From contig CALVDX010000001.1 in the NCBI GenBank assembly GCA_944326425.1, forward strand, positions 1-64,000: a stretch of 64,000 nucleotides of DNA, written 5' to 3'. This document shows, piece after piece, positions 6,645 to 35,605 of the stretch. Numbering within the stretch: the first letter of the stretch is position 1; the number at the start of each line of letters is the position of its first letter. The stretch is from Candidatus Gastranaerophilales bacterium (GTDB taxonomy: Bacteria > Cyanobacteriota > Vampirovibrionia > Gastranaerophilales > Gastranaerophilaceae). The translations under genes and the position numbers were made by a program. The notes beneath the pieces were generated by a model. The model had not been told where the DNA came from and did not search any database. It was given only the letters and a program-made list of their open reading frames with translations.

Positions 6645-7127
6645 TTATTTCCCGTCATATTCGTAGCTATATAAGTTTTGTGTATTATTTTCAAAATCAA
6701 TCCGGTCACCGGCGTTGAGATAAACTTTGTTTAGTTTAGAAAATCTTTCGCCGGAAATTTCTTCACCCACTATTATTCTGTCATTATCAGTATTTTGTGT
6801 ATTTTCTCCAAGATTGAATGTGTTGCGCATTGTTTCTTTACCGTAAATCCTGAATACATCCTGAGATCCTTCTACTCCTGTAATATCGGAAAATAGCAAA
6901 TTATGTAAAGTTACAGAGCTGTCATCATTTAAAAATACAGATGCTCCGCTTGCATTATTGGCGGGAATAGCGGTATCATTTGCATATATTTTAACACCGT
7001 TATTAAGTGTTACTACATAAATATCTTCGCGTTTATGATACTCTCTGATTTTAATTTTTTCAAAATTTTTAATATCCTTTGTTTGGAATTTTATACCGCC
7101 GTAAGTAATATAATCCTTTTCGCTCAT
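6645..7127 (-). CDS. Orphan 160-residue protein behind an HLR1-like promoter
   Basis: The protein is acidic, has no signal peptide and no membrane segment, and belongs to no family I recognise. Its sequence (NNGVKIYANDTA, SVTLHNLLFSDITG) looks like a beta-rich soluble protein. A GGAG Shine-Dalgarno precedes the ATG at 7127. Upstream on the same strand is a TGTAA-N6-TGTAA repeat (7217-7202) and an ACTTTATTATA segment (7162 down), the same arrangement seen before several other orphan genes here. A shared regulator is inferred. Confidence 0.65.
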   Translation of the reverse strand: MSEKDYITYGGIKFQTKDIKNFEKIKIREYHKREDIYVVTLNNGVKIYANDTAIPANNASGASVFLNDDSSVTLHNLLFSDITGVEGSQDVFRIYGKETMRNTFNLGENTQNTDNDRIIVGEEISGERFSKLNKVYLNAGDRIDFENNTQNLYSYEYDGK

Positions 7128-7148: not shown

Positions 7149-7217
7149 TACTATAATAAAGTTTTTTTAATGCTAAAAATTTACTTTTTTCGCTGCAGAT
7201 ATTACAACTTTGTTACA
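7149..7217 (-). promoter_or_regulatory. HLR1-like direct repeat (weaker copy) and -10 region
   Basis: On the plus strand the site reads ATTACAAC-TTT-GTTACAAA (7201-7219), two TTACA half-sites 11 bases apart instead of 10, so it is an imperfect HLR1 match. About 47 bases from its centre toward the gene at 7127 lies ACTTTATTATAGTA (7162-7149, minus strand), resembling the ACTTTATATA blocks downstream of the sites at 34986 and 35337. The expected transcript start is about 20 bases before the ATG. Confidence 0.4.
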
Positions 7218-7287: not shown

Positions 7288-7731
7288 TTAGCTTCCTATG
7301 TTCAGGGCTGTTTGTGCCATTGATTTTGAAATAGTTACCAGAGCAACGTTTGCTTCATAAGCTCTTTGTGCGAGAATGGCATCAGCCATATCGACCATGG
7401 CATTTACATTTGAGGAACGTATATAACCGTTGGCATCAGCATCCGGGTGCCCCGGAGCATAAATTCTGTCTCCCGGAGTAGGATCCTCAACGCATCCGTT
7501 CATTACTACTCCGCCCTGTAAATAAGGAAGTGTTCCTATACCAAACACATCGTTTTTCATTACGTTTAACAAGCCGTGAAAGGATATATCTTCACTTGCA
7601 TTCAATACAGGAATGCGCCTTACATAATTGGGCGTATCGATATTTGCAATGTTTTTTGCGTGAATATCAAGCCTTAATCCATGCGCTTTAAGTGCATTTT
7701 TACCGATGTTAATTGATTCCATTATACTCAT
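7288..7731 (-). CDS. flgC: Flagellar basal-body rod protein FlgC
   Basis: The 147-residue product has the FlgC layout: an N-terminal rod segment with NIANIDTPNYVRR (27-39) and a C-terminal segment SNVNAMVDMADAILAQRAYEANV followed by the closing amphipathic helix. It forms part of the proximal rod of the flagellar motor together with FlgB. It is the last gene of a leftward four-gene rod operon and starts five bases after flgB ends. Confidence 0.95.
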   Translation of the reverse strand: MSIMESINIGKNALKAHGLRLDIHAKNIANIDTPNYVRRIPVLNASEDISFHGLLNVMKNDVFGIGTLPYLQGGVVMNGCVEDPTPGDRIYAPGHPDADANGYIRSSNVNAMVDMADAILAQRAYEANVALVTISKSMAQTALNIGS

Positions 7732-7736
7732 AAGCT

Positions 7737-8090
7737 CTAACCTCCGCCTACATTAAGAACTGTCCGCATCTCCGTAACAAGATTTGTCATTCTTTTTGTT
7801 GCCATTGTGTAATAAATCATGTTTTTCTGGACTTCTGCGAGTTCCTGTGTTATATCTATTTCTTCCTCGCGCCGGTCCTCAATCATTCCCGAGGGCCCCA
7901 GTTTTGTAGAAAGCTTTGTTTCCAAAGGACTGTTCATACTGCCAAGATACATACCAAAATCTATGTCGCGTCTGACATACCCCGGTGTATCCATATTGGC
8001 AACATTAGAAGTTAATGCCCTCTGTCTCTGCGAGACCAGGTCCATCATTAAATTTACTTTTCCAAATGAATCAAGTGCCGTAAATGTCAT
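7737..8090 (-). CDS. flgB: Flagellar basal-body rod protein FlgB
   Basis: The 117-residue protein carries the family motif SNVANMDTPGYVRRDIDF (28-45) and a C-terminal helix with NMIYYTMATKRMTNLVTEMRT. It builds the proximal rod directly above the MS ring with FlgC. It sits between the FlgG-like gene and flgC in the same leftward transcription unit. The 118-base gap upstream (8091-8208) holds short hairpins, including AAGGG-TGCAG-CCCTT, but no clear terminator in the operon's direction. Confidence 0.94.
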   Translation of the reverse strand: MTFTALDSFGKVNLMMDLVSQRQRALTSNVANMDTPGYVRRDIDFGMYLGSMNSPLETKLSTKLGPSGMIEDRREEEIDITQELAEVQKNMIYYTMATKRMTNLVTEMRTVLNVGGG

Positions 8091-8208
8091 CGTTTATCCT
8101 TTCTTTTTTGAGGCCGGATAGGGAAAAATTTCCCCTGCTTATTATTTTTAAGGGTGCAGCCCTTTGTATTTTATTATGGTTTTATGGAAGTAAATATTTA
8201 TTTCCCAC

Positions 8209-8922
8209 CTATTCTCTTATATTAATTGCCTTGTTGTACATATCATCTGCAACTTTCATAAGGTTTAAACTTGCAATCATAGAAGCATTAAGCCTTAACA
8301 TCTCATTAACCTCATCAAACACATTTGTATTTGAAGTTTCAATCTGGTGCTGAACAATATAATTATGTTCCCCGATTAATCTTGGCGGGCCGGATTCTTC
8401 TGTCGGCACCATTTTATTGTTATGCCCCTGATCCAAGCTTTCGGGCGAATCAAATTCCACGATAGGAATATGCCCGATTAATGCCGGTTCTGAGCCTGCA
8501 TAATCATAACTGTACACATCTCCGTTAGGTGAAACTGTAAATTTATAGCAGTTAGCCGGAATTTGTATGCCGTCACCAACCAGCCAGCCGTCGCCTGTCA
8601 TCAGGTATCCGTCCTGACCTCTTGTAAAAGCTCCGTCACGCGTATATTGAATTTCTCCCTCAGGAGATATGACAGGGAAATAACCGTGCCCGTTAATTGC
8701 CAGATCATAAGGGTTATTAGTGACAAGTAAATCTCCCTGACGTGCGTCTGTCCTTAATACACCGGTTAAGTATCCATCTTCTCTCAGCATTTGTTCAAAC
8801 TTGGTTACTTTATATGCATTTGTCTGATAGTTGGATACATTGTTTGCTACTTGTCCCAAACGTTCAAACTGATATGTTGCGCAATTTATATTTTTTCTTA
8901 TGATTGCCTGTAAACTATACAT
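8209..8922 (-). CDS. Flagellar rod protein, FlgF/FlgG family
   Basis: The 237-residue product has the FlgG-family N-terminus (LGQVANNVSNYQTNAYKV), the central repeats GHGYFPVISPEGEIQYTRDGAF and a C-terminal rod segment ending in MKVADDMYNKAINIR. The typical N-S-T-x-G motif is altered to N-Y-Q-T-N-A-Y. It is shorter than many FlgG proteins (about 260) and nearer FlgF in length. It follows another FlgF/FlgG paralogue by ten bases, so together they probably supply the two rod subunits. I cannot assign F or G with certainty. Confidence 0.9.
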   Translation of the reverse strand: MYSLQAIIRKNINCATYQFERLGQVANNVSNYQTNAYKVTKFEQMLREDGYLTGVLRTDARQGDLLVTNNPYDLAINGHGYFPVISPEGEIQYTRDGAFTRGQDGYLMTGDGWLVGDGIQIPANCYKFTVSPNGDVYSYDYAGSEPALIGHIPIVEFDSPESLDQGHNNKMVPTEESGPPRLIGEHNYIVQHQIETSNTNVFDEVNEMLRLNASMIASLNLMKVADDMYNKAINIRE

Positions 8923-8932
8923 AATTTACTCC

Positions 8933-9631
8933 TTATGATACTGAGCCAAGTTTGCTTATTACGTTTTGTAAGTTGTTGTTTTGCATAATAAATATTTGCC
9001 TGTTTGCTTCAAAGTTTCTGACAACAGGTTTAACTTGCAAAAACTCATTTTGAAGCGAAACGTTAGAATATTCATTATATCCTTGTTTAACATCAGGATT
9101 TAAAACAGCCATACCGTTAGAATCTACGACTCCGATGACTCCGCATTCTTCCATTTGCCGGGTCTCGGGATTAAACACACTAACCTTACCGCGTGTATTT
9201 ACAACTACTTCATCCGGGGAACGCGGGATAATGGTTAATTGTATAGGGACTCCGCTGTCGGATAATACAGGATTATCTTCAAGATTTAATAAATTGCCGA
9301 ATTTGTCATATTTAAACCGTCCGTCGCGTGTTAAAACGATACCATCCGGAGTTGCAATTTGAAAATATCCGCGGTTTGCAATTGTTATATCAAGGGGATT
9401 GCCTGACGAAATAATACGTCCCGGCTGGTCATCTATTGTAGAAGATAAACCGTGTACGCCTAAGAATTCAGTAAATGAAGAAACAACAGGTTCACGCCGC
9501 TGGTATCCGACCTTATCGAATCCGTTAACATTTTCCGTCGTTATTTGTAATATGCTGCTTTGCAAATGCATTGCTCTTATTGATGCCCTGATTCCGGGTT
9601 CACAAAATCTGACACCGCCGTTTATCTTCAT
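8933..9631 (-). CDS. Flagellar rod protein, FlgF/FlgG family (second paralogue)
   Basis: The 232-residue product contains the family core NRGYFQIATPDGIVLTRDGRF and ends with a rod-type amphipathic helix (VRNFEANRQIFIMQNNN). The N-terminal motif reads TTENVNGFDKVGYQRREP, a divergent version of the A-N-N-x-A-N-x-x-T-x-G-[FY] signature. It is first in the operon flgF/G, flgF/G, flgB, flgC. About 165 bases upstream lies a minus-strand TATAAT (9808-9803) with an HLR1-like site centred 41 bases further back, suggesting that a response regulator controls this rod operon. Confidence 0.9.
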   Translation of the reverse strand: MKINGGVRFCEPGIRASIRAMHLQSSILQITTENVNGFDKVGYQRREPVVSSFTEFLGVHGLSSTIDDQPGRIISSGNPLDITIANRGYFQIATPDGIVLTRDGRFKYDKFGNLLNLEDNPVLSDSGVPIQLTIIPRSPDEVVVNTRGKVSVFNPETRQMEECGVIGVVDSNGMAVLNPDVKQGYNEYSNVSLQNEFLQVKPVVRNFEANRQIFIMQNNNLQNVISKLGSVS

Positions 9632-9940
9632 AGTTATACCTCTTTTTTATTATTAAATCGGATGTTTTTTGAGTTTGCTTAATAAATTCAAATAAAATCA
9701 TCCATTTAATGTAGTATTAATTACTTAATAATGATTTTTTCTTTGTCAATTTTCGCGAGGGTTTTAATTCAATTATTTTTCTTTTGTCCGGAGAATCGAC
9801 GTATTATAACGTTTATCCTGAAAAAAAATATTATTTGCTTGTTACAAAACTTTACAAATTGTGCAAAAAAGGCAATTCCCAAACCTCAAAATACTTTATA
9901 TACATGTAGGTTAATAAAGGTTAGTACAGGTAGGTAGAAA
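9632..9940. promoter_or_regulatory. Divergent promoter region with a perfect HLR1-like site
   Basis: This 309-base region separates the leftward flagellar rod operon from the rightward orphan at 9941. At 9841-9858 the plus strand reads GTTACAAA-AC-TTTACAAA, an exact match to the cyanobacterial HLR1 consensus. Leftward, a TATAAT lies on the minus strand at 9808-9803. Rightward, ACTTTATATACATGTA lies at 9893-9908. Both potential transcript starts would sit about 50-60 bases from the centre of the one site, so it could control both genes. The leftward leader of the flagellar transcript would be about 165 nt. Confidence 0.55.
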
Positions 9941-10447
9941 ATGTTTTTGCTATTGTATAGACAGATGTCTTTAATAAGACAGCGAAATAGCTTAATAAAG
10001 CAATTGATGGATGAAAAGCAAGAGCTTTATGACATTCAATCATACGCTGCTACCTTAGGTCAGGGGAGATTGACGCCGGCATCAATTGCATCATTGCCGG
10101 GGTCTGTATTTGGTGATGGTTTCAGGTTTATGAATATGAGCAATCAGTTTGCTCTTCAATCTGCTGCTCAGAAATTCAGTATTTTTGAACAGGCCGGAAT
10201 GATGCCTCAGGGGGGGACACCTGCTCAAACACAGCAAATGAGAAGGTATTACTTTAACTGTTTTGCGGAACAAGCCTTCCAGCAAATGAGAAAAAGTAAA
10301 GAAATAGAATTGAATAAAATGGAAAAAGAAATTGATTTGCGCTCAGCAAGGATTCAACAGCGGCTGCAGGCAGTTGAAGCTGAATTAGACAGTGTAAAAG
10401 GTGCAGTAGAACAGAGATCTTCGCAAGACGCACCTAAGTACGCATAA
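9941..10447 (+). CDS. Orphan coiled-coil protein divergent from the flagellar rod operon
   Basis: The 168-residue protein has a Met/Leu-rich start, a Gln-rich middle and a long charged C-terminal helix (KSKEIELNKMEKEIDLRSARIQQRLQAVEAELD...) that should form a coiled coil. I recognise no family. AGGTAG six bases before the ATG at 9941 supports this start over the internal ATG at 9965. Sharing the HLR1-containing divergent promoter with the rod operon suggests a motility-linked or co-regulated role, which is inference. A rho-independent terminator follows at 10491. Confidence 0.7.
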   Translation: MFLLLYRQMSLIRQRNSLIKQLMDEKQELYDIQSYAATLGQGRLTPASIASLPGSVFGDGFRFMNMSNQFALQSAAQKFSIFEQAGMMPQGGTPAQTQQMRRYYFNCFAEQAFQQMRKSKEIELNKMEKEIDLRSARIQQRLQAVEAELDSVKGAVEQRSSQDAPKYA

Positions 10448-15770: not shown

Positions 15771-15846
15771 AAACTGATTTTAGCATAAAAACTAAAATTA
15801 ATTTATATTACAAAATATTAAGCAAAAAATTTAATGAATATTACAA

Positions 15847-15908
15847 TGTAACAAAATGTAAATTAAATTTATATTTTGCTGTAACAGAGTTATAATGCCA
15901 TGTATGAT
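15847..15908 (+). promoter_or_regulatory. HLR1-like site and possible -10
   Basis: The reverse complement of 15845-15862 reads TTTACATT-TT-GTTACATT, an exact HLR1 match (on the coding strand TGTAA at 15847 and 15857). A TATGAT at 15903-15908 lies 49 bases from the centre, the same geometry as the site at 26030. A second hexamer, TATAAT at 15891, gives a closer alternative, and TATAAT at 15970 a later one. The orphan at 16038 lies downstream, and nadK is divergent. Confidence 0.5.
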
Positions 15909-16037
15909 ATGATGGGATGGGATGTTATTCTTTTGTTAAAGTTTTTTAGAAAGCTGCCGTTATACATTGTATAATCCGCACCGGTTATGCCGTAAGGATT
16001 GAGTATTCTTTATAGTAAATAGAAAGGACGGTAATTT

Positions 16038-16307
16038 ATGGGAATTTCAAGACTCCACATCAACATTTTGAAGCGGGACATGCAAAACACTCCGAAACTG
16101 CCAAAACCAGATGAACTTGCAGCAGAACGCACTCAGGTTCCGGGGAAACCAGATGAACCGGCAGAACCTCAGGTTCCGGGGAAACCAGCAATTGATGCTG
16201 ACGCCGTTGCAGAATATCAGGCGATGATTTTTAAAGAAATTATTACCAAAAATTTTGAAGAGTCTAATAAAGATATTGCTCAAACATTTGAAGAGTTTAA
16301 TAAATAA
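16038..16307 (+). CDS. Small orphan protein with a Pro-rich repeat
   Basis: This 89-residue protein has no recognised family. Its middle carries the repeat QVPGKPDEPAEP followed by QVPGKP, encoded by an exact 21-base direct repeat (16132-16152 and 16168-16188). The C-terminus is an acidic helix with two similar NFEESNKDI/TFEEFNK segments. AAAGGACGG precedes the ATG as Shine-Dalgarno. A terminator hairpin follows, so it is a monocistronic unit with an HLR1-like site upstream. Confidence 0.7.
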   Translation: MGISRLHINILKRDMQNTPKLPKPDELAAERTQVPGKPDEPAEPQVPGKPAIDADAVAEYQAMIFKEIITKNFEESNKDIAQTFEEFNK

Positions 16308-25974: not shown

Positions 25975-26029
25975 AATTTACTCTCCTTTTTTACTTTATA
26001 ATAGCATTTCTTGATAAAGTAATCATTGT

Positions 26030-26092
26030 TGTAAATTTTTGTAAAAACAAGGGGGTAAAAACAACAAATAAAATCTTTAGGATTGTTATGAT
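26030..26092 (+). promoter_or_regulatory. HLR1-like site and possible -10
   Basis: The reverse complement of 26028-26045 reads TTTACAAA-AA-TTTACAAC, matching HLR1 except at the last base. On the coding strand TGTAA stands at 26030 and 26040. TATGAT at 26087-26092 is centred about 50 bases downstream, followed by the orphan gene at 26121 with its Shine-Dalgarno. The divergent ddh gene could also be affected. Confidence 0.5.
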
Positions 26093-26120: not shown

Positions 26121-26558
26121 ATGCCTGTTGTAAATAATGTAAGTGTTTCTGATTTTTCTGCAAAAACTAAGAATATGAATAATAATATTGCACAAACTCA
26201 TGCGTTTTTATCTAACCCTTTAGCGGACGCTTTTGTCTGGGGCGGTATCGGTGCGGCTGCTGGTGCAGGATACGGGTTGTACTCGCAGCATAAGCTGCTG
26301 AAAGATAAAACGCGGGTTGATAGCGCAATTGAGGGAATAACAAGCCAGATAGAAGCTTATAAAAAATGTAGCAAAAATACGAGAAAGCTGGAATATTCGC
26401 TTAAATGTTTAAAAAATAACAAAATTAATTTAAATTCAGTAAAAAACTGGGCAATTGCAATCGGTATAGTAGCTTTAGTTCCGCAGTTGATTTGTAATAC
26501 GCTTATGTGGGCAGGTAAAAAGGGTTACGATAAAATAACCGGAGCGGAAGATAATTAA
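26121..26558 (+). CDS. Orphan protein with two predicted membrane segments
   Basis: The 145-residue protein has a short polar leader (MPVVNNVSVSDFSAK), a glycine-rich hydrophobic stretch (FVWGGIGAAAGAGYGLY, about 35-51) and a second one (WAIAIGIVALVPQLICNTLMWAG, about 112-134) around a charged middle. No family is recognised. AAGGAG before the ATG at 26121 fixes the start, although the frame is open 11 codons further. An HLR1-like site lies upstream and a terminator follows. Confidence 0.7.
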   Translation: MPVVNNVSVSDFSAKTKNMNNNIAQTHAFLSNPLADAFVWGGIGAAAGAGYGLYSQHKLLKDKTRVDSAIEGITSQIEAYKKCSKNTRKLEYSLKCLKNNKINLNSVKNWAIAIGIVALVPQLICNTLMWAGKKGYDKITGAEDN

Positions 26559-34807: not shown

Positions 34808-34985
34808 TTATAGGTTTTGCAGAGGAAAAATCGAAAATTTTACCCAAAAGTCGGTGGGGAAAAGATGCAGTTGTTAGTGTACACCTGCAATTGCTGCTCA
34901 GGAATAATAGCATTGCATTACTATATTTTTTATAAAGCTAACACTTCTTTATTTGAATTGCTTAAATAGCTTTTGGGTGTGTATA

Positions 34986-35055
34986 TGTAAACTTTTGTAA
35001 CGAACATGAGGTTTCTCTGAAAAATGATAATTTAAATGAACTTTATATATATGTA
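34986..35055 (+). promoter_or_regulatory. HLR1-like site and ACTTTATATA-type -10
   Basis: The reverse complement of 34984-35001 reads GTTACAAA-AG-TTTACATA, an exact HLR1 match. ACTTTATATATATGTA at 35040-35055 provides the -10 region. The centre of the HLR1 site lies roughly 60 bases before the expected start. The 60-residue gene at 35087 follows. Confidence 0.6.
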
Positions 35056-35086
35056 GCTTTTCTAATAAAACACAGGAGACGTTATT

Positions 35087-35269
35087 ATGACAATCGATGT
35101 TACTTCCTTAAATTATTCGGATGCCGTCAGGTATCTGGAAGATTATCTCTCGGAAGCTCCTATTTTTGGGCTTACTGAAGATGATTTTTACTGTATTTCT
35201 CTGGCATACAATTTGGACACATCTTGTATTGCAAAGGAAAATCAAAATCAAAATATTTATTTGATTTAA
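35087..35269 (+). CDS. Small orphan acidic protein (60 residues)
   Basis: This short protein has no family I recognise. An AGGAG ribosome site, an upstream HLR1-type promoter and a terminator right after the stop together make a complete gene unit, which argues that the frame is real. It is acidic in the middle (SEAPIFGLTEDDF), soluble and without signal peptide. Confidence 0.7.
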   Translation: MTIDVTSLNYSDAVRYLEDYLSEAPIFGLTEDDFYCISLAYNLDTSCIAKENQNQNIYLI

Positions 35270-35272
35270 AAG

Positions 35273-35298
35273 AGGCAAAGATTTAATCTTTGCCTTTT
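35273..35298 (+). terminator. Rho-independent terminator of the 60-residue orphan
   Basis: AGGCAAAGAT and ATCTTTGCCT pair perfectly over TTA and are followed by TTT. Confidence 0.85.
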
Positions 35299-35336
35299 CA
35301 ATTAATGTAATATAAGTGGAACGATTTATGCTTGAA

Positions 35337-35405
35337 TGTAAATTTTTGTAACAAATATTTTAAAACGCGCAATTTTGAGAGACAGATATACTTTATATAT
35401 ATGTA
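35337..35405 (+). promoter_or_regulatory. HLR1-like site and ACTTTATATA-type -10 (sRNA promoter candidate)
   Basis: The reverse complement of 35335-35352 reads GTTACAAA-AA-TTTACATT, an exact HLR1 match, and ACTTTATATATATGTA recurs identically at 35390-35405. The spacing (53 bases from first TGTAA to ACTTTAT) differs by one from the copy at 34986. No coding gene begins within 150 bases downstream. Confidence 0.55.
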
Positions 35406-35409
35406 AGCG

Positions 35410-35532
35410 ATAAATAATAAATAAGCATACAACTCCAAACCTTTCATACAACCTACACACTAACCTTCTACACATGAGGAATTATTTAAAAAGAATTCCA
35501 AACCTTTCTTCTCAAAAGAGAGGTTTTTTTTT
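35410..35532 (+). ncRNA. Candidate small RNA, about 120 nt
   Basis: Between the HLR1-type promoter (to 35405) and a rho-independent terminator (35501-35532) there is no plausible coding frame. The transcript would carry an unstructured C-rich middle with CCAAACCTTTC twice (35435-35445 and 35498-35508), plus ACCTAC and ACCTTCT. CCTTTC and ACCTTC are complementary to purine-rich ribosome sites such as GAAAGG and GAAGGT, so it could pair with mRNA leaders. Expression is inferred from sequence only. Confidence 0.45.
35501..35532 (+). terminator. Rho-independent terminator
   Basis: AACCTTTC pairs with GAGAGGTT (one G-U), a nine-base loop, and seven T residues follow. The nearest upstream coding gene already has its own terminator at 35273, so this one belongs to a separate transcript. 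Confidence 0.75.
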
Positions 35533-35605
35533 GCTCTAACTTTTATACGAAACTTTTTTATGTTAAGATAATGCCTGTTAAATAGAGTGTTTAGTGGTGT
35601 TTTGT

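Follow-up and report, generated by a model that had tools for sequence, protein, structure and literature searches.

A large candidate RpaB/HLR1 regulon coupled to sigma-28 promoters in a non-photosynthetic relative of cyanobacteria

What would the HLR1 element, recognised in cyanobacteria by the light-stress regulator RpaB, be doing in a gut bacterium that is unable to photosynthesise? The question is raised by a 64,000-nt stretch of DNA (the window, in what follows) from a rumen-type Candidatus Gastranaerophilales, a member of the non-photosynthetic lineage beside cyanobacteria, whose genome assembly comprises 2.01 Mb in 40 contigs. Homologs of RpaA, RpaB and NblS in Melainabacteria were reported in 2013 and 2014, with no function given beyond 'another function' (PMC3787301, PMC4040986). 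A sequence-only reading of the window noted five pairs of TTACA half-sites and proposed that an RpaB-like regulon of orphan proteins, flagellar rod genes and an sRNA has been kept in this lineage. The observation is real, and it is far larger than that reading could see. The predicted sites, about 70 in number, and their likely targets give the 2013 question on RpaB and NblS homologs a concrete, testable answer, and open the role of RpaB in this bacterium to test; they bear on what was under the control of this regulator prior to oxygenic photosynthesis or in its absence, and they gather many uncharacterised gut-bacterial proteins, together with an apparently new sRNA family, into one testable set.

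HLR1 sites in the window and in the genome

All five TTACA repeats with a 10-base period were found where the sequence-only reading had seen them, and all are intergenic. Four of them match KTTACAWWNNKTTACAWW exactly, namely those at 9841-9858 on the plus strand and at 15845-15862, 34984-35001 and 35335-35352 on the minus strand. Pattern matching also bears out the single mismatch in the fifth (26028-26045, minus strand), which lies ahead of an orphan gene without Pfam match (26121-26558, plus strand), the start of which we placed at 26121, behind an AAAGGAG, in preference to 26088. The weaker site suspected near 7201 is a TGTAA-N6-TGTAA repeat at 7202-7217 (minus strand), with a period of 11 instead of 10, ahead of the orphan gene 6645-7127. 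The TGTAA-N5-TGTAA arrangement occurs five times in the window, each time in intergenic DNA, even though such DNA makes up only about 10% of it; all other spacings from N0 to N15 give seven matches in total, which are the period-11 site and six matches within genes. The expectation for an exact HLR1 in the intergenic DNA of the window, computed from base composition, is 0.004.

The TGTAA strand of the site at 34984 faces a gene for a small protein of 60 amino acids (35087-35269, plus strand), which has the ribosome-binding site AGGAG; a sister species carries a 97% identical copy (L198) adjoining its sRNA. Between site and gene lies a promoter block of a second type, ACTTTATATATATGTA, the presumed -10 region (35040-35055, plus strand), which recurs at many HLR1 sites. 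The site at 35335 lies ahead of a conserved sRNA, which has the same block at 35390-35405 (plus strand). At both sites ACTTTATA begins 47 bp from the HLR1 centre, inside the range of 46-48 bases that had been given for a block of the ACTTTAT(A/T) type. The TGTAA strand of the site at 9841 faces left, toward a flagellar rod operon (7288-9631, minus strand) in which Pfam recognises two FlgE/F/G-type genes (8933-9631 and 8209-8922), a Flg_bb_rod gene (7737-8090) and a rod gene with Flg_bb_rod and a C-terminal domain (7288-7731), so that this part of the proposed target set holds; a TATAAT -10 box for the operon, at 9803-9808 (minus strand), would place the HLR1 centre at about -53. Two arrangements had escaped the sequence-only reading. 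On the far side of the 9841 site there is a ACTTTATATACATGTA block of the ACTTTATATACATG type (9893-9908, plus strand), ahead of the orphan gene 9941-10447, and behind the 15845 site a TATAAT -10 box (15891-15896, plus strand; predicted HLR1 centre about -50) stands in tandem with a FliA/sigma-28-type promoter, TAAAGTTTTTTAGAAAGCTGCCGTTA (15937-15962, plus strand), followed by an orphan gene for 89 amino acids (16038-16307, plus strand).

We searched the whole genome for KTTACAWW-N2-KTTACAWW, with the same pattern reversed as control. Exact sites number 71 and exact matches to the control 10; when one mismatch is allowed, the counts are 126 and 47. The density of 35 exact sites per Mb is above that of the cyanobacteria sampled. 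The motif is almost wholly intergenic, and not equally common inside genes: at most six of the 71 sites overlap open frames of at least 100 amino acids, some of them merely at the 5' end of the frame, and 13 sites do so when frames of at least 70 amino acids are called mechanically. If the coding density of the genome equals that of the window, the probability of such placement by chance is negligible. A start codon follows in the TGTAA direction at a median distance of 82 bp (48 sites with a frame of at least 100 amino acids within 170 bp). The second N position of the consensus is nearly always A or T among the 68 sites that lie outside a repeated element, CCGGCAGTAAARCCTG; this element, which is not promoter-like, contains the other three exact matches (G000:C9:65570, C13:3847 and C19:3914). 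The 71 sites are not all independent, since some copies are duplicates (e.g. C16:42908 and C21:25929). Several of contigs C4, C16, C18, C21 and C25 end just behind combined HLR1-sigma-28 promoters, an indication that the assembly was interrupted by target genes that are nearly identical. From G000:C10:12360 onwards, one site is directly followed by a stretch of over 70 A residues, which is either an assembly fault or a real homopolymer.

Promoters behind the sites and their recurrence in related genomes

An alignment of the sequences that follow the 71 sites reveals promoter elements at fixed positions. In class A, a sigma-28 element of the form TAAAG..N..GCCG stands behind 24 sites, and two more fit by eye; TAAAG lies 17 bp past the 18-mer in 20 cases and 18 bp past it in two, and the remaining two, at 27 bp, are one helical turn further out. 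Class B, with about 15 sites that include those at 34984 and 35335 in the window, has the block ACTTTATATATATG starting about 38-41 bp past the 18-mer, often with CAATT at 17. Class C consists of about 10 sites with a TATAAT-like box 28-32 bp past the 18-mer, eight of which have a sigma-28 promoter further downstream, as at 15845. Behind about 17 of the 71 sites no promoter could be recognised, in addition to the three in the repeated element.

The coupling also emerges when the search is turned around. The sigma-28 promoter consensus is TAAAGTTT-N11-GCCGATAA, and elements resembling it number 49 in the genome against 17 for the control. Among 42 sigma-28-like elements with known upstream DNA, found independently of HLR1, exact TGTAA repeats stand upstream of 22, all of them spaced by N5; the spacings N0-N4 and N6-N11 do not occur. 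The distance from the end of the repeat to TAAAG is 18 bp in 17 of these and 19 bp in two; in the other three, at 28 bp (two) and 29 bp (one), the repeat is one helical turn further out. This fixed sigma-28 coupling is the most telling feature of the system, and lay mostly outside the view of the sequence-only reading.

In the E. coli aer promoter the G of the -35 element is at -28 (PMC2859248); if TAAAG occupies -32 to -28 here as it does there, the HLR1 centre would fall near -58 in class A, and it is predicted near -50 in class C. The predicted -10 and -35 elements thus place HLR1 at about -50 to -60, with starts guessed from sequence, within the -45 to -66 quoted for activation by RpaB in cyanobacteria (PMC13421787).

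Tandem ATGAT pentamers, in 2-13 copies, occur between the TATAAT and sigma-28 promoters of paralogous genes (G000:C17:12645, C5:106296, C2:27566, C2:79590, C2:104970, C14:13374 and C13:45188; 15904-15913 in the window), C13:45188 being an exception in that no sigma-28 promoter lies beyond the pentamers. Copy number shifts the distance between the two promoters in 5-bp steps, making the array a candidate phase-variation device.

Exact HLR1 sites are also in excess elsewhere in the family. Across a sample of 40 genomes from other genera their mean number is 20.6 against 3.0 for the control, and it is higher than the control in each of the 40; in 12 genomes of the genera g1, g15 and g21 the means are 49 and 3.7. 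The composite HLR1-sigma-28 element averages 18.1 copies in these three genera, with a range of 13-25 per genome and no hit in the control, and 2.75 elsewhere in the family, and is confined to this one group of genera. Dependence of the composite on flagellin was considered and rejected: genus g21 has no flagellin, yet keeps 13 composites, indicating that the element serves more than the filament alone, and genus g14 has flagellin but few composites. Behind composites in G206 and G192 there are homologs of target proteins of our genome. In another family of the class, five members have RpaB-like genes and none has an HLR1 excess; genome G212 has 11 HLR1 sites and no RpaB at the threshold used.

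The candidate regulator and alternative explanations

Only four proteins in the genome have an OmpR-type DNA-binding domain above the Pfam cut-off, and one of them, L031, is a true RpaB ortholog. It passes the NCBI equivalog model for RpaB (NF045944) with 357.3 bits against a cut-off of 330, and is 67-73% identical to cyanobacterial RpaBs (72-73% at best), as compared with at most 48% for the next OmpR-type proteins; it stays below the YycF model (NF040534, 224.6 bits against 340). Its recognition helix, DTRVVDVHISRLRSKL, is identical to that of Prochlorococcus RpaB and matches other RpaBs at 15 of 16 positions. Of 292 genomes from the phylum, 283 contain an RpaB match of this strength. L031 is 99% identical to the RpaB of the Candidatus Gastranaerophilales metagenome-assembled genome BRZ_RF__bin58, and several other close relatives come from rumen assemblies. 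Synechocystis RpaB carries a receiver cysteine, C59 (PMC4361706), at the place of which L031 has Thr. Of the RpaB/NblS pair that the sequence-only reading proposed to look for, the first member is present; the best kinase candidate, L118, has NblS as its best family (NF045911), with 326 bits against a cut-off of 1000, and is NblS-like, short of a confirmed NblS. L106 is FliA (TIGR02479, 233.7 bits against 189.6; NF005413, 217.3 against 201).

Taken together, these features make it probable that the repeats are HLR1 sites of the RpaB ortholog of this genome, which would switch on one large flagellar, orphan and sRNA regulon. An RpaB dimer would sit at HLR1 on a single face of the helix and touch polymerase just upstream of the -35 region at sigma-28, second-type and TATAAT promoters, the sigma-28 elements presumably being read by FliA. 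Polymerase contact at such promoters would mean that the regulon needs both a signal that leads to RpaB phosphorylation and the right sigma factor; light or photosynthetic redox is unlikely as the input, because the organism has no photosynthesis. The genes switched on would be those for the rod, flagellins, orphan families that resemble substrates of flagellar-type export, small proteins and the two-copy sRNA.

Each part of this reading has competitors. The binder could be one of the three other OmpR-type regulators in the genome (L032, L033 or L034), with RpaB doing something else, and relatives of OmpR and PhoB such as WalR do read similar TGTAA repeats. We consider this improbable: the recognition helices of these three share 7-9 of 16 positions with RpaB, none of the three exceeds the cut-off of any curated family in the models listed, and the period of the repeat is 10, as in HLR1, not 11, as in WalR or PhoB boxes. 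A somewhat better case, albeit still an unlikely one, can be made for RpaB binding the sites and mainly repressing, or merely keeping promoters poised, given that HLR1 close to the start represses in cyanobacteria (PMC13421787) and that the starts here are predicted from sequence. The predicted centre at about -50 to -60 is, however, upstream of the -35 element, and a fixed promoter spacing with one-turn steps is what is expected of contact with polymerase; activation by RpaB is therefore the direction we infer.

Two further explanations dispense with a regulator altogether. The repeats might be passengers of duplicated promoters of paralogous genes, as several targets are paralogous and some promoters are close copies (the tandem TATAAT/sigma-28 group and the duplicates at contig ends). 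Among the remaining sites, however, the resemblance is limited to HLR1 and the promoter elements, and does not extend to spacer and leader; one type of HLR1 site stands before three different promoter types, and HLR1 is kept in other genera before target proteins that are merely about 35-55% identical, all of which makes this account very hard to credit. Chance matches in AT-rich DNA draw on the window count with two mismatches, which is just mildly above shuffles (18 against 10); perhaps about 10 of the 71 sites did arise in this way. For the bulk of the sites chance is refuted by the exact count against the reversed pattern, the excess in 40 of 40 genomes of other genera, and the fixed sigma-28 spacing, and as a general account it can virtually be dismissed; gene-internal occurrence was rejected together with chance, on the count, the spacing and the intergenic placement.

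The preferred reading, of a regulon activated by RpaB, resembles the RpaB/HLR1 regulon of Synechocystis and Synechococcus elongatus in the 18-bp consensus, the orthologous regulator with the same recognition helix, the position of sites upstream of promoters at a similar (here predicted) distance, and the presence of an sRNA among the targets, as is PsrR1 in Synechocystis. It differs from it in lacking photosynthesis targets, with flagellar, orphan and export-like proteins instead; in the coupling of many sites to sigma-28 or another unusual promoter type; and in the Thr for the receiver Cys and the merely NblS-like kinase. The WalR/YycF box, TGTWAH-N5-TGTWAH with period 11, is likewise a direct TGTAA repeat for an OmpR-type regulator, whereas the period here is 10 and the regulator fails the YycF cut-off. 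That an activator can work directly on sigma-28 promoters from just upstream is known from CRP at aer and trg of E. coli (PMC2859248), and RpaB would do likewise here; the CRP system has two promoters and a centre at -49.5, as opposed to at least 24 promoters, an OmpR-type regulator and a predicted centre at about -58 or one turn further. Our literature search, restricted for the most part to openly accessible journals, found no paper joining HLR1 or an RpaB regulon with Melainabacteria, or describing sites or targets for the RpaB homologs there. Site and regulator were known already; what is new, as far as we could find, is the lineage, the target set, the sigma-28 coupling and the sRNA, and, to the same extent, the HLR1-sigma-28 unit would be the first instance of sigma-28 promoters coupled to a response regulator on a genome scale. 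More speculatively, RpaB may be an ancient partner of sigma-28 polymerase, with RpaB-FliA promoters controlling flagellar-type export and orphan cargo, even where there is no flagellin, and its role in photosynthesis recruited later by cyanobacteria; we regard this as a tentative and rather doubtful scenario.

As a side observation, the gene for the OmpR-type regulator L033 (G000:C5:34742-34960) sits between dnaA-like and dnaN-like genes.

The small RNA and the protein targets

The inclusion of an sRNA in the proposed target set holds up, as a conserved unit with a terminator is found behind the 35335 site and in several genera. In the window it is a transcript-like unit of 120-130 nt (35406-35534, plus strand, start approximate) that ends in a terminator hairpin (35500-35526, plus strand) and U tract, has a C/U-rich unpaired core, AACCTTTCATACAACCTACACACTAACCTTCTACACA, and a small stem, GGAATT/AATTCC, and folds better than shuffles (z -2.6). 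A second copy, 99% identical, is at G000:C6:57679; related copies occur in g1, g15 and g21, usually two per genome, and two other genera have its 3' half. Among the copies the core ACACACTAACCTTCT..ACACAYGAGGAATT is nearly invariant, and the terminator stem varies on both sides in a compensatory manner, still pairing in all 12 variants folded. An Rfam search gave chance-level matches only, to no family, PsrR1 included, and the sRNA probably represents a new family. Like the RpaB-controlled PsrR1 of Synechocystis, it looks trans-acting, with a C-rich unpaired core, and stands behind HLR1; unlike PsrR1, it has two copies and no Rfam match. Its complementarity to leaders of the regulon shows no enrichment over other leaders, although there are isolated long matches, such as one of 11 nt at C3:97969. 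A leader motif complementary to the core, AGGTTAGT, recurs behind second-type promoters (C2:20730, C2:62811, C3:97969 and 9914-9925 in the window), and is not significant overall.

Beyond the window, two flagellins are among the targets, as well as one AAA and one HD protein; a calpain-like match stays under the cut-off. For most of the target proteins Pfam gives no domain, which agrees with their earlier description as orphans. One family with many paralogs and no Pfam match combines an MGxxASQxRLLxLTxR N-terminus and a conserved C-terminal helix with a variable middle (L006, L016, L017, L052, L223, L228, L230, L231, L232, L238 and L244), and is found behind composites in all three genera. 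Its structural model, of modest confidence, has long N- and C-terminal helices round a variable beta middle. A comparison of this model with PDB gave no significant match, with flagellar filaments as weak top hits (E 0.05), on account of which we do not claim that these are flagellar proteins; with a model of such quality, export of the orphan proteins is put forward as a conjecture about their role as cargo. An EF-hand-like family (40% over 496 columns) also stands behind composites, as do others. Many orphan targets, among them L012, L020, L050 and the L031 flank, carry a short N-terminal motif resembling NFKG, SFKG or VFKA, which may serve as a tag for export or sorting.
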